From Acinetobacter zhairuonensis (GTDB lineage Bacteria > Pseudomonadota > Gammaproteobacteria > Pseudomonadales > Moraxellaceae): a DNA stretch of 64,000 nucleotides. Below are positions 197-5,838 of this stretch, one piece after another. The position numbers and the translations under genes were made by a program. The notes under the pieces are model-generated. The model was not told where the DNA came from, ran no database searches, and was given only the letters and a program-made list of their open reading frames with translations. How positions within the stretch are numbered: position 1 is the stretch's first letter; each line of letters begins with the position of its first letter. The DNA is taken from assembly GCF_022601715.1 (NCBI RefSeq), contig NZ_JAKVIM010000020.1:1-64000 (forward strand), given 5' to 3'.

Positions 197-1747
197 ATGC
201 GTAAAAAAATTATTGCACGTTCCATCGCTCTGGCTGGTGGAGCTTTGCTTTCAACCGCCCTGATGGCAAAAGCACCGAATATCTTGGTGATTATGTCGGA
301 TGATGTGGGCATGACAAACGTCAGCGCGTATAGCCATGGGGTTATGGGGTATAACACGCCGAATATTGACCGTATTGCCAAAGAAGGCATTATGTTCACT
401 GATCATTATGCACAGCCAAGTTCTACCGCAGGTCGTGCATCGTTTATTACGGGTCAGTATCCAATTCGTTCAGGTTTGACCACGGTAGGGCGACCAGGTT
501 CGCCTTTAGGGATTAAACCAGAAACACCAACGCTGGCAGAAGTACTAAAACCTTTGGGTTATATGAGTGGTCAGTTTGGTAAAAACCACTTGGGTGACCG
601 TAACGAACATTTACCAACCGTGCATGGTTTTGATGAGTTCTTCGGTAATTTGTATCACCTCAATACTGAGGAGACTTTTGAGCAATTTGATTATCCAAAA
701 GATCCAGAATTCCGTCAAAAATTTGGTACTCGTGGCGTTCTACACTGTTATGCAAACACTACAGATGATGAAACGACTGATCCGCGTTTTGGTAAAATGG
801 GTAAGCAAAAATGTAAAGATACGGGTGAACTTTCGCGTAAACGCATGGAAACGGTGGATGATGAATTCATTGCAGCCAGCTTAGACTTTATGAAGCGCAG
901 TAAAAAAGCAGACAAGCCGTTTTTTGTATGGTTAAACCCAAGTCGTATGCATGTGTTCACACATTTGCGTGACTCACATCGTCATCTGGCGTCAAAAGCT
1001 ACTTCTGAAGAAGATTTGTACGGTAGCGGCATGATTGAGCATGACATGCAAGTTGGTCATGTGCTGGATGAAATGAAGAAGATGGGGGTGTTGGATAACA
1101 CCATTATTGTTTATACCACGGACAATGGTCCTGAACACAGTGCCAAAAACCATGGTGGAACCACGCCATTCCGTGGCGAGAAAATGACGACTTATGAAGG
1201 TGGCGTACGTGTTCCAATGATGATCCGTTGGCCTGGACACATTCCTGCGGGACAGGTGAAAACTGGGATTCAGGCGAATATGGATCTTTTCACGACTTTG
1301 GCAACTGTAGCGGGTAATCCAAATGTTGTGGAAGACATGAAAACCAATCGTAAACAATACATTGATGGTTTAAATAACCTTGATTACTGGACAGGTAAGT
1401 CGGCTGAAAGTAAGCGTAATAATTACCTGTATTACCATGAATCTACCCTGCGTGCTCTTCGAATCAACCAGTGGAAGATTCATTTAGAAACCAGTGAAGA
1501 CTATTACGGTGGCTATCAAAAGCAGAAGATTCCATTGATCTTCAACATTCGTCAGGATCCATATGAGTCATTTGATAGCACTACAGACCGTTCTGAAATT
1601 ACTCAGCAAAAATTATGGCTGGGTGAACCTGTAGAAGCATTACTAGGCGAGCATGTGAAGTCATTGATGGATTACCCGCCTGTACAAAAAGCCACCACGC
1701 TGGATTTCAGTAAATTGGTTGAAAATTTACTGTCACAAAAGAAATAA
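197..1747 (+). CDS. Exported arylsulfatase-family hydrolase with Ser at the nucleophile position
   Basis: This is a 516-residue sulfatase of the alkaline phosphatase superfamily, predicted to hydrolyse sulfate esters in the periplasm. Residues 1-25 look like a Sec signal peptide (basic MRKK start, hydrophobic core, ALMA just before the mature end). Metal-ligand motifs include MSDDVG near residue 33 and TTDNGPEH in the middle. The active-site signature reads S76-T-A-G-R80. Cys-type relatives have C-T-A-G-R, so the residue converted to formylglycine would be Ser, as in Klebsiella AtsA. Ser-type sulfatases need a radical-SAM maturase (anSME), and none is encoded nearby. The start has AAGGA eight bases upstream of ATG. 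A terminator follows. The substrate cannot be told from sequence. Confidence 0.88.
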   Translation: MRKKIIARSIALAGGALLSTALMAKAPNILVIMSDDVGMTNVSAYSHGVMGYNTPNIDRIAKEGIMFTDHYAQPSSTAGRASFITGQYPIRSGLTTVGRPGSPLGIKPETPTLAEVLKPLGYMSGQFGKNHLGDRNEHLPTVHGFDEFFGNLYHLNTEETFEQFDYPKDPEFRQKFGTRGVLHCYANTTDDETTDPRFGKMGKQKCKDTGELSRKRMETVDDEFIAASLDFMKRSKKADKPFFVWLNPSRMHVFTHLRDSHRHLASKATSEEDLYGSGMIEHDMQVGHVLDEMKKMGVLDNTIIVYTTDNGPEHSAKNHGGTTPFRGEKMTTYEGGVRVPMMIRWPGHIPAGQVKTGIQANMDLFTTLATVAGNPNVVEDMKTNRKQYIDGLNNLDYWTGKSAESKRNNYLYYHESTLRALRINQWKIHLETSEDYYGGYQKQKIPLIFNIRQDPYESFDSTTDRSEITQQKLWLGEPVEALLGEHVKSLMDYPPVQKATTLDFSKLVENLLSQKK

Positions 1748-2636: not shown

Positions 2637-3839
2637 CTAGATTGGCTTATGCGGACTCAGCGGTTTGTTGTAGCTGAGTAAATCAATCAATGCAAAAATG
2701 GCAGCGCCAACCACCAATAAGATCCCCACCAGACAGCTCATGCTCCATCCACCATGATGCCAAGCATACACACCCAATGCGGAACCGCAGGCACCGCCAA
2801 TAAAATACATGGTCATATAAATCGAGTTAATACGCGATTTTGCATCAGGACGAATACGGAAAATAATGTTCTGATTACTGCTATGTACTACGGCTAAGCC
2901 CAAGTTAATCAGACCGTAGCCAATAATATAATTCAATAGATGCTGCCCACCTAAATACAGGAAGTACCAGCTGATTGCCATGATGGCACAGCCTGTCCAA
3001 GTGAGTACCGTGGTATAGCCTTGATCTGCCAATTTCCCCACATATTGTGTAGACAGTGCGCCGAATACACCAATCAGCGGGATTACCCCGACCAGTACAT
3101 CAGGCAGTTGATAGGTTTCCGAAGTCAGTAACAGGGCAATGGTGGAGAATAAAATACTCATGGCAGCAAAGGCAAAACCACCAATCAAAGCACGCAAGAC
3201 AAGGCGACGTTCATCCTTAAGTAAAAGTCCCATGGACTGAAACACTTGCGGATAGCTCATCTTGAATGACATCACATAAGGCAAGCGGGATTGAAGTAAA
3301 AAAGCCAGAATTAAAATCGAAATGCCGCTTAAGATATAAATCAGTTTCCAATGGAATAAATTAGAGAGTAAACCCGCCAAACTGGTTGAAAGCAGCAAAC
3401 CGACCAATAAGCCACTCATTAAAAAGCCAATCACTTCACCTGTTTTCTCGGGTTTAACCGCCATGGTTGCCAAAGGGATGAGCACCTGAGCTGCCACGGA
3501 AAACAGTCCAACAATACTGGTACCAAGCCAAAGCATGGGTAAATTGACCGCAAAGGCGCAGATAAACAAACCAATTGCCGCCAGAAACATCAGCAACGGA
3601 ATAAATTTGGTTTTATTCACCATATCGCCAATCGGAACAATGAGCAGTAAGCCCAGTGCATAAGACACTTGGGCAAAGGTCACGGTTAAGGCAACTTGAG
3701 ATTCAGGGACATCAAAATACTGTTGAATCGAATGGATCAAAGGCTGGCAGTAGTAGTTGGCACCAGCACATAGACCGCAAGCCACAGCCATAAGCCACAG
3801 CAAAGGTTTGTCTTGGCTAATATCACGAGGAGAATTCAT
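2637..3839 (-). CDS. MFS drug/metabolite exporter, SoxR-linked
   Basis: This is a 400-residue inner-membrane protein with about 12 hydrophobic segments and MFS-type loops, such as GDMVNKTKF between TM2 and TM3. The N-terminal NYYCQPLIHSI signature is shared with a large group of putative proton-driven exporters. The substrate is unknown. The start ATG has AAGGAA on its upstream side. It lies 21 bases downstream of the RidA-like gene on the same strand, so the two probably form an operon driven by the SoxR-type promoter at 4315-4345. That context suggests efflux of redox-active compounds, which is inference. Confidence 0.82.
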   Translation of the reverse strand: MNSPRDISQDKPLLWLMAVACGLCAGANYYCQPLIHSIQQYFDVPESQVALTVTFAQVSYALGLLLIVPIGDMVNKTKFIPLLMFLAAIGLFICAFAVNLPMLWLGTSIVGLFSVAAQVLIPLATMAVKPEKTGEVIGFLMSGLLVGLLLSTSLAGLLSNLFHWKLIYILSGISILILAFLLQSRLPYVMSFKMSYPQVFQSMGLLLKDERRLVLRALIGGFAFAAMSILFSTIALLLTSETYQLPDVLVGVIPLIGVFGALSTQYVGKLADQGYTTVLTWTGCAIMAISWYFLYLGGQHLLNYIIGYGLINLGLAVVHSSNQNIIFRIRPDAKSRINSIYMTMYFIGGACGSALGVYAWHHGGWSMSCLVGILLVVGAAIFALIDLLSYNKPLSPHKPI

Positions 3840-3860: not shown

Positions 3861-4283
3861 TTAATTGCAATAAGCGGTTGCTTCAATTTCTATTAGCATC
3901 CCTGATAAGGCAAGACACGGAACAGGAATCAGTGTGCAGGCAGGAAAGTCATGTTGTTTCCAGCGCTTTTGTATTTCCTGAATTAAAAACTGATGTTTCT
4001 TGGGGCTATGATCAACCACCAGAATTCTTAAAACTGCAATATCTAAAACAGAAGCGTGCGCATATTGAAGAGCATGGTTAAGGTTTTCAAATGCTTGATG
4101 CGTTTGCTCTGCGAAATCTTTAGATAAATGTCCTCGTTGGTTTTCACCACCTTGTCCTGAAATATGAAGTATACGTGAAAAGTGCCGAACTTCAGCCATG
4201 TGACTATAGGCAAAAGGACGTGGATTATACAGTGTGTTTGGGTTTATCAATTGAAATGCAGATGCTGCGTTCGCCTGTTGCAT
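3861..4283 (-). CDS. RidA/YjgF/YER057c-family protein lacking the deaminase Arg
   Basis: This 140-residue Rid-family protein has the usual HISGQGG block, a helix with QTHQAFENLNHAL, and a C-terminal strand ending LIEIEATAYCN. Classical RidA hydrolyses reactive enamines/imines using an Arg in a V-A-R-L stretch near the C terminus. Here the corresponding stretch reads P-V-P-C-L, so that Arg is missing and imine deaminase activity is not expected. I chose ATG 4283, preceded by AGGAC at good spacing. A longer TTG start at 4322 lies upstream of the -10 element of its own promoter and is unlikely. It is the first gene of a two-gene operon with an MFS exporter. Confidence 0.78.
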   Translation of the reverse strand: MQQANAASAFQLINPNTLYNPRPFAYSHMAEVRHFSRILHISGQGGENQRGHLSKDFAEQTHQAFENLNHALQYAHASVLDIAVLRILVVDHSPKKHQFLIQEIQKRWKQHDFPACTLIPVPCLALSGMLIEIEATAYCN

Positions 4284-4314
4284 AAAAAGTCCTGTTTGCT
4301 CTTGAATTTTTGCT

Positions 4315-4345
4315 AGTATCAAAGCTCAAGTTAACTTGAGGTCAA
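4315..4345 (-). promoter_or_regulatory. SoxR box within a 19-bp-spacer promoter for the RidA-like/MFS operon
   Basis: Read on the minus strand, TTGACC (4345-4340) and GATACT (4320-4315) are separated by 19 bp. This is the overlong spacer typical of promoters activated by MerR-family DNA distortion. The spacer holds the perfect palindrome CTCAAGTTAACTTGAG (4325-4340). It differs by one base from the 18-bp E. coli soxS operator when flanks are included. soxR starts ten bases away on the other strand, so the site probably also mediates autoregulation. Confidence 0.85.
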
Positions 4346-4350
4346 GACCT

Positions 4351-4875
4351 GTGTCAGATATTTCGCAACCTGCTTCAATTACGCAAGCATGGTTAAGTAT
4401 TGGAGATTTAGCAAAGCGCAGCGATGTCAGTGTCGCTACTTTACGTTTTTATGAAGAAAAAGAATTGATTTGGAGTACCCGAACCTCAGGTAATCAGCGT
4501 CGTTATCAACGTTCCATGTTAAGACGGGTTGCAATTATCAAGGCCGCACAGCAGGTGGGGATTTCATTGCAACAGGTTAAAGAGGCCTTTGCTGCTTTAC
4601 CTAAACAAGGTAATGCGACCAAACAAGATTGGCAACAGATGTCCAAAAACTGGCAAGCACAGTTAGATCAGCAGATTGTGCGTCTATTACAGCTACGCCA
4701 ACAACTGGATTGGTGCATTGGTTGCGGGTGTTTGTCCCTAGAGCAATGCCCTTTGCGTAATCCAAATGATGTCTTTGCTGAAACTTCGGCAGGCGCACAT
4801 TTTCAGCAGTTACTCATGCAAATTGATCCAGAGCATTGCGAGTTGTCGCTACGCAGCAATGACGAAACCACTTAA
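4351..4875 (+). CDS. soxR: Redox-sensitive transcriptional activator SoxR
   Basis: This 174-residue MerR-family regulator has an N-terminal winged helix-turn-helix (IGDLAKRSDVSVATLRFYEEK), a dimerisation helix, and a C-terminal C-x2-C-x-C-x5-C cluster (Cys122, 125, 127 and 133). That cluster binds the SoxR [2Fe-2S] centre, and the following CPLRNPND matches SoxR closely. Oxidation of the cluster by redox-cycling compounds activates transcription. I chose GTG 4351, with GAGG nine bases upstream. A TTG at 4336 lies inside the operator. No soxS is present, so SoxR probably acts directly on the divergent RidA-like/MFS operon, as in non-enteric bacteria. Confidence 0.93.
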   Translation: MSDISQPASITQAWLSIGDLAKRSDVSVATLRFYEEKELIWSTRTSGNQRRYQRSMLRRVAIIKAAQQVGISLQQVKEAFAALPKQGNATKQDWQQMSKNWQAQLDQQIVRLLQLRQQLDWCIGCGCLSLEQCPLRNPNDVFAETSAGAHFQQLLMQIDPEHCELSLRSNDETT

Positions 4876-4911: not shown

Positions 4912-5838
4912 TTATTTGGCTAATTTCTTTTTGGATAAGGTAATCATCATCACCCCGACGATATTGAGTACACAGCCGACCCATTGCCAGAAATTCAGAT
5001 GTTCATTTAAAAATGCCACCGCCAATAAAATGGTCAGTATGGGACCAATCGAGGCAATCATAGCGGACTGAGCGGCACCCAAGCGTTCAATACTTTGCAT
5101 TAACAATACTGTAGGCACGACCGTTACAAAGAAGCCTAAAGCTAAACCATACCAAAGTACGGCATGTGGCAGTTGTTGAATTAACAACATCGGATGTGGC
5201 GTGACCCAGAAAAATTGCACCAGTGTACCGATACAGGCAGTACTTAACGCCAAACCTGTAAAATTCCATGAACCAAACTTTTGAATTAGTGGTGGTGTAA
5301 GTAATAGATACGCGGCGAAGGCTATCGCACTGGCAAACACAAAGCTGGCACCCAGCCAAAAATGTTCTTGTACAGGTGCATTTTGTTGTTCTTGCAGCAT
5401 GACTAACACCGTTCCGCCATAACTGAGCAGGATTGCAATCACACTTTTAAACGACAGTTTCTGACGATACAGAGCGCACGATGCCAAGACGGTTAAGGTC
5501 GGGTAGAGAAATAAAATGATGCGTTCCAAAGAAGCACTAATATACATCAAGCCCAGAAAGTCGAGCCAACTGGCAAAGTAATAGCCCATTAAGCCTGCGG
5601 TAATCAGTAGTCCCCAATCTTTGGCTTTTAAACCTTTACTTTTTTCCCGATTCAACCAGCAAATCAGTAAAAAGAAGGGTAAGGCACATGCCATGCGAAT
5701 TGCCATCAGCAGTGTGGCATCCACCACAGGAGATAGAGCATAGGCTTGTTTAATGAAAATGGCTTTGCTGCTAAACAAAAAGGCAGCACCAATGGCGAAT
5801 AAACTGCCGAGTTGTGCGCGAGATAAAGTGAAATTCAT
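4912..5838 (-). CDS. EamA-family (DMT) permease
   Basis: This 308-residue membrane protein has ten hydrophobic helices arranged as two EamA repeats, as in the drug/metabolite transporter superfamily. The first half starts with LGSLFAIGAAFLFSSKAIFIK. The second repeat holds LGASFVFASAIAFAAYLLL and ends IGPILTILLAVAFLNEHLNFWQWVG. It probably exports or imports a small metabolite, but the substrate cannot be read from sequence. It is convergent with soxR, 36 bases apart, and faces the long intergenic region upstream of pntAA. No strong ribosome-binding site is visible before the ATG. Confidence 0.82.
   Translation of the reverse strand: MNFTLSRAQLGSLFAIGAAFLFSSKAIFIKQAYALSPVVDATLLMAIRMACALPFFLLICWLNREKSKGLKAKDWGLLITAGLMGYYFASWLDFLGLMYISASLERIILFLYPTLTVLASCALYRQKLSFKSVIAILLSYGGTVLVMLQEQQNAPVQEHFWLGASFVFASAIAFAAYLLLTPPLIQKFGSWNFTGLALSTACIGTLVQFFWVTPHPMLLIQQLPHAVLWYGLALGFFVTVVPTVLLMQSIERLGAAQSAMIASIGPILTILLAVAFLNEHLNFWQWVGCVLNIVGVMMITLSKKKLAK

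Follow-up and report, generated by a model that had tools for sequence, protein, structure and literature searches.

A Rid-MFS operon predicted to be under SoxR control in Acinetobacter

Results

Organization of the locus

The window is the 64,000-nucleotide stretch of Acinetobacter zhairuonensis DNA that was analyzed. It encodes a Rid-family protein and an MFS transporter on the minus strand and soxR on the plus strand (Table 1), which bears out the preliminary description of soxR as divergent from the other two genes. The same description had placed a palindrome one base off the E. coli operator in a 19-bp promoter spacer, and both the palindrome and the TTGACC/GATACT hexamers were found, with the -10 at the expected minus-strand position. 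An CCTCAAGTTAACTTGAGG-like palindrome inside an over-long -35/-10 spacer is the mark of a SoxR-activated promoter. The EamA-family gene beyond soxR recurs close to the unit in many related loci, including some that have lost soxR.

Table 1. Features of the Rid-MFS/soxR locus and other genes noted in the window.
Feature	Position	Strand	Details
Sulfatase-family gene	197..1747	+	PF00884
MFS transporter gene	2637..3839	-	PF07690, 98.7 bits; 21 bp after the Rid gene
Rid-family gene	3861..4283	-	PF01042, 64.5 bits (gathering 27.3); Cys116 at the RidA Arg105 position
Predicted extended -10 for soxR	4311..4319	+	TGCTAGTAT, TGNTAGTAT; overlaps the Rid -10 on the opposite strand
-10 GATACT of the Rid-MFS promoter, 19-bp spacer	4315..4320	-	exact in 92/99 loci (L120 excluded)
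SoxR box (palindrome)	4324..4341	.	GCTCAAGTTAACTTGAGG, 1 mismatch to E. coli consensus CCTCAAGTTAACTTGAGG
-35 TTGACC of the Rid-MFS promoter	4340..4345	-	exact in 98/99 loci (L120 excluded)
soxR	4336..4875	+	TIGR01950, 199.1 bits (cut-off 116.9)
EamA-family transporter gene	4912..5838	-

The SoxR protein scores above the TIGR01950 cut-off and contains the CX2CXCX5C motif, which every one of the 65 linked SoxR rows examined (67 in total) retains. Rows with at most 100 residues to the first stop (L157, L164, L173, L176, L188, and L207) were excluded from the SoxR tree and, whether linked or unlinked, from the motif count. The soxR frame is interrupted by a stop inside the matched region in L157 (G040), L164 (G115), L176 (G006), and L188 (G086), reflecting either decay or sequencing error; L157 and L164 belong to the 67 loci counted as having an adjacent soxR. 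The listed TTG start of the window soxR falls inside the box, and a likelier start is the GTG at 4351, with GAGG at 4338-4341 (by eye).

The transporter had been described as a drug pump. Its PF07690 match supports the family, and family membership suggests drug export; the best NCBIfam subfamily model, TIGR00710, scores 46.1 bits against a cut-off of 200.9, and no NCBIfam cut-off was reached. A search of the PDB at 1e-3 gave no match to the MFS sequence. Five relatives besides the transporter itself were found in the order (38-39% identity; 6/194 genomes), and no box within 3 mismatches was detected in the stretch searched around them.

The Rid protein lacks the RidA arginine

The Rid protein belongs to the Rid superfamily by its PF01042 score, above gathering, and by the Rid fold of its structural model (pLDDT 92.9). 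The best structural match is 5v4f (TM 0.87/0.91), YyfB of Y. pestis, which is 40% identical in the Foldseek alignment. Cys116 aligns opposite the Arg of human p14.5 (1oni), so the protein lacks the deaminase arginine, as first described. The catalytic Arg of the RidA subfamily (Arg105, E. coli numbering) is missing, which rules out a RidA deaminase, and TIGR00004 scores 30.1 bits against a cut-off of 106.25. The earlier label of RidA-like is therefore loose: it is right for the superfamily and wrong for RidA itself. Cys occupies this position in 98/98 Acinetobacter Rid rows that cover it; the 15 outgroup rows have Cys (10), Ser (3), or Asn (2). By eye, Arg is present in the genome's five remaining PF01042 proteins. 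Groups Rid4 to Rid7 are reported to be without the Arg and apparently do not hydrolyze imines (Niehaus et al., PMC4433059). Rid5/Rid6 (PMC4433059; Y3550) resemble the present protein in missing the catalytic Arg and keeping the Glu. The Arg position is described as variable in Rid5/Rid6 (PMC4433059), whereas in the Acinetobacter rows the Cys is fixed.

The SoxR box and the predicted overlapping promoters

The chance expectation for a SoxR box at 3 or fewer mismatches is 0.02 per 64 kb. Box and promoter hexamers together carry 3 mismatches; in 20 Markov-shuffled windows, the best site per window carries 8-11. Within its own genome, the box alone matches the 16-mer core with 0-1 mismatch; the reversed-pattern control also gives one match at 1 or fewer mismatches, which counts against the specificity of the box. 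The 16 weaker core sites (one at 2 mismatches, the others at 3) look like background, as the reversed control gives 18, and two 3-mismatch sites both fall within ORFs (497 and 518 aa). With a single strong site genome-wide, Rid-MFS and soxR look to be the only direct SoxR targets by box pattern, and weaker targets are possible.

The predicted soxR -10 and the Rid -10 overlap on opposite strands, a feature of mfsA-type divergons recognized here from sequence. The TGN element of the extended -10 is present in 64/67 loci with an adjacent soxR compared to 1/32 without, while the Rid -10 GATACT is found in 61/67 and 31/32, respectively. This distribution of the TGN fits a soxR promoter that starts inside the box. 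The box covers the predicted soxR transcription start, placed from the -10 position, an arrangement that fits self-repression by SoxR. A shared -10 was considered as a new architecture and rejected: it is already described, along with self-repression, for mfsA-soxR of S. maltophilia (PMC4411124). That locus also has a divergent soxR and MFS gene, with a box that lies in the spacer of the target promoter and covers the start of soxR. It differs in that MfsA is a 14-TM pump and no Rid gene is mentioned in the available portion of that report (PMC4411124), whereas Rid is present here.

Conservation across Acinetobacter

Searches of 175 Acinetobacter genomes found Rid (E 1e-15 or better) in 100 and SoxR (E 1e-30 or better) in 99. 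Both proteins occur in 95 genomes, Rid only in 5, SoxR only in 4, and neither in 71, counts that are uncorrected for shared ancestry. Two of the four SoxR-only genomes (G018, L172; G078, L173) keep soxR and the MFS gene with a partial Rid match between them. The MFS gene follows Rid on the same strand in 100/100 Rid loci, and 67 of these loci have an adjacent, divergent soxR. The core box has no mismatch in 35 Rid loci, 1 in 30, 2 in 33, and 4 and 8 in one locus each. A recognizable promoter (TTGACC-N19-GATACT or near) with a box is present in 99/100. The exception, L120 (G065), lacks a box, has also lost soxR, and carries a Rid gene with an in-frame stop; it was left out of the promoter comparison, which hence covers 99 loci. 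Because the species share ancestry, the P values for the promoter and co-occurrence comparisons overstate the independent evidence. A core box within 1 mismatch occurs in 75/175 genomes compared to 20 for the reversed control (manual count of the listing).

Among named Rid proteins, the closest to that of the window is from A. kanungonis, whose best-matching segment is 95% identical. One genome titled A. baumannii (G059; L045/L017) has a Rid that groups with A. guillouiae and is 79-80% identical to the window Rid, and its name may be wrong; it has a box with 2 mismatches and no SoxR above the cut-off.

Loss of the neighboring soxR

In 33 Rid loci soxR is not adjacent; 32 of these still have the box along with the -35 and -10. 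SoxR is encoded elsewhere in 29 of these 33 genomes; the other four (G059, G065, G097, and G150) have none at E 1e-30, and a TIGR01950 search of them gave nothing above the cut-off. Two SoxR proteins in one genome at E 1e-30 were found in 0/175 genomes. The unlinked soxR loci were read in 26 of the 29 genomes (G014, G021, and G141 were left out). Their SoxR proteins (24 rows) form one clade with support 100/99. This clade branches with Acidovorax SoxR and with SoxR from other families of the class (90/82), separately from the adjacent type. The node of the adjacent type is weak (96/43), and the tool flags long branches at the joins between SoxR clades.

On a quick FastTree of Rid plus MFS, the 33 loci without an adjacent soxR occupy five places. 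The first two are larger groups, of 17 loci (0.67) and 12 loci (0.71), which are separated by nodes of 0.98 and 0.99; the others are the pair L016/L017 (0.96), L136 (which joins at 0.89), and L120. The box is retained in the first four places, where an unlinked SoxR is present in 16/17, 11/12, 1/2, and 1/1 genomes. All 17 loci of the first group, presumed to be the A. baumannii/oleivorans group, have the box sequence CCTCAACTTAAGTTGAGG, which no other of the 33 loci has; both halves have changed and the palindrome is preserved.

The genes beside the unlinked soxR fall into recurring sets. DoxX and HlyD genes are found in 10-11/26 loci (tblastn with the L177 and L180 proteins). An RND permease follows them in the three loci read further (L262-L264; G025, G031, and G112), where soxR is divergent, and an outer-membrane factor gene comes after the permease in L262 only. 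The box between soxR and DoxX at these pump loci has 2-3 mismatches. We take this DoxX-HlyD-RND gene order to match mexGHI-opmD. An I78/DUF333 gene lies beside soxR in 14/26 loci, and these gave no match to the pump proteins within the 2.8-4.5 kb searched.

Rid loci outside Acinetobacter

Acidovorax facilis has the order soxR-box-Rid-MFS with an identical -35, spacer length, and -10. An MFS match was absent from two of three Acidovorax loci within the 8 kb searched, and in all three TAGTAT is preceded by GGT or GGC, not TGN. Among 38 Rid loci, SoxR lies beside Rid only in Acinetobacter and the three Acidovorax loci. In another family (f14; 33 Rid matches in 32/297 genomes), 0/30 loci had a box at 3 or fewer mismatches or an Acidovorax SoxR or MFS match within flanks of about 1.5 kb. 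Thus, the activity of Rid is not tied to SoxR generally, and SoxR control was probably added onto a pre-existing kind of Rid. In Acidovorax, the cassette reflects either another addition of this kind or a transfer.

ORF neighborhoods outside Acinetobacter were read at nine loci plus L047 and L202, and the remainder were searched by tblastn for SoxR, MFS, and EamA. The neighbors of Rid relatives were considered as a hint to function and gave no consistent pathway (CMD plus sigma-70 family; TPP enzyme; HMGL plus CoA transferase; DUF2252; LysR). Related Rid proteins of Avrilella and Paenimyroides (L055 and L056) have Asn at the Arg position and are flanked by carboxymuconolactone decarboxylase-family and sigma-70 family genes (Pfam on L055 only).

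Discussion

The anatomy, conservation, and co-occurrence of the Rid-MFS/SoxR unit are established by the data above. We assign a probability of roughly 0.8 to the interpretation that this is a SoxR-controlled divergent unit in which oxidized SoxR turns on a Rid-MFS operon orthologous to sinE as a defense against redox-active compounds. Promoter anatomy and conservation give strong support to the direct SoxR control first proposed, which stands as a prediction from them. SoxR made from the plus strand would bind the box and cover the predicted start of its own extended -10 promoter, leading to self-repression. The same box sits in the over-long 19-bp spacer of the predicted Rid-MFS promoter. 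Redox-active compounds would oxidize the SoxR [2Fe-2S] cluster, and the spacer would be distorted so that RNA polymerase transcribes Rid and MFS. Spacer distortion by oxidized SoxR is known SoxR/MerR biology. The MFS protein may export the compound or its product, and the arginine-less Rid would work inside the cell.

The closest comparison is sinE of Acinetobacter oleivorans DR1, reportedly described by Kim, Park, Imlay, and Park in 2017 (J Biol Chem 292:121) as a direct SoxR target and an 'endoribonuclease'. The sinE gene is said to be present in only a few gamma- and betaproteobacteria, a narrow range that fits the Acinetobacter and Acidovorax Rid loci found here. Like sinE in that description, Rid-MFS is a putative direct SoxR target in Acinetobacter. 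The operon is probably orthologous to the sinE locus, which would make direct SoxR control a known kind of regulation. The two differ in layout: soxR lies beside Rid in the window and not in the 17 CCTCAACTTAAGTTGAGG loci presumed to be the A. baumannii/oleivorans group. The A. oleivorans DR1 soxR (AOLE_12135) is reported to rise 2.5- to 4.0-fold under four antibiotics (PMC4201530). In P. aeruginosa, SoxR targets mexGHI-opmD (PMC8859910). As is proposed for Rid-MFS, these are export genes under SoxR without soxS. They encode an RND pump, not an MFS protein, and a similar DoxX-HlyD-RND operon lies beside the unlinked SoxR in some Acinetobacter.

The preliminary description called the Rid component unexplained, which is probably not wholly so given the sinE report and the endoribonuclease label of PF01042 in Pfam. 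These two points favor the strongest rival, in which Rid is the RNase SinE: it would be induced by redox-active compounds, cut rRNA, and slow translation to give tolerance, with the MFS protein as a separate export arm. The YabJ protein of S. aureus is reported to gain RNase activity after chlorination (PMC6435465). However, a family label is not evidence of RNase activity, and native YabJ is reported to be without nuclease activity (PMC6435465). The Cys103 that matters in YabJ is the counterpart of E. coli Cys107, not of Cys116 in the present Rid, which sits at Arg105. Purified Y3550 of Y. pestis, a Rid without the Arg, and Y3551 are reported to have no RNase activity (PMC7221256, where the data are not shown). 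RNA cleavage, as reported for SinE, is our second guess, at odds of roughly one in three. Our first guess, at somewhat less than even odds, is that Rid binds or converts a reactive small molecule; a chaperone function ranks third and is improbable.

A second rival holds that the box serves only soxR autoregulation and that Rid-MFS is constitutive from the same DNA. The box does also cover the predicted soxR start site, but in loci without a neighboring soxR the box, -35, and -10 persist (32/33) and the soxR-facing TGN does not (1/32), and this explanation is very unlikely. A chance palindrome has only the single reversed-pattern match in its favor and a negligible probability, ruled out by the 0.02 expected per window, the shuffles, the whole-genome scan, and the conservation of the box together with its promoter.

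There is a further proposal, which we judge about evenly poised between right and wrong. One conserved operator would have passed between two anciently separate SoxR lineages: the adjacent SoxR was lost and the box kept in about four places, and SoxR of the other clade would serve Rid-MFS in trans. In this proposal Rid may be a distinct Cys-type protein acting on products of redox-active compounds. The second SoxR either arrived once, with differential loss, or arrived several times. This rewiring is the part that looks new; no earlier report of such a regulator swap was found in literature checked at the level of listings. Rid-MFS is a likely example of one regulator replacing another at a conserved operator, and it offers a natural test of what arginine-less Rid proteins do. 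In much of the genus, which has hospital species among its members, a sensor of redox drugs would control both an exporter and an arginine-less Rid.
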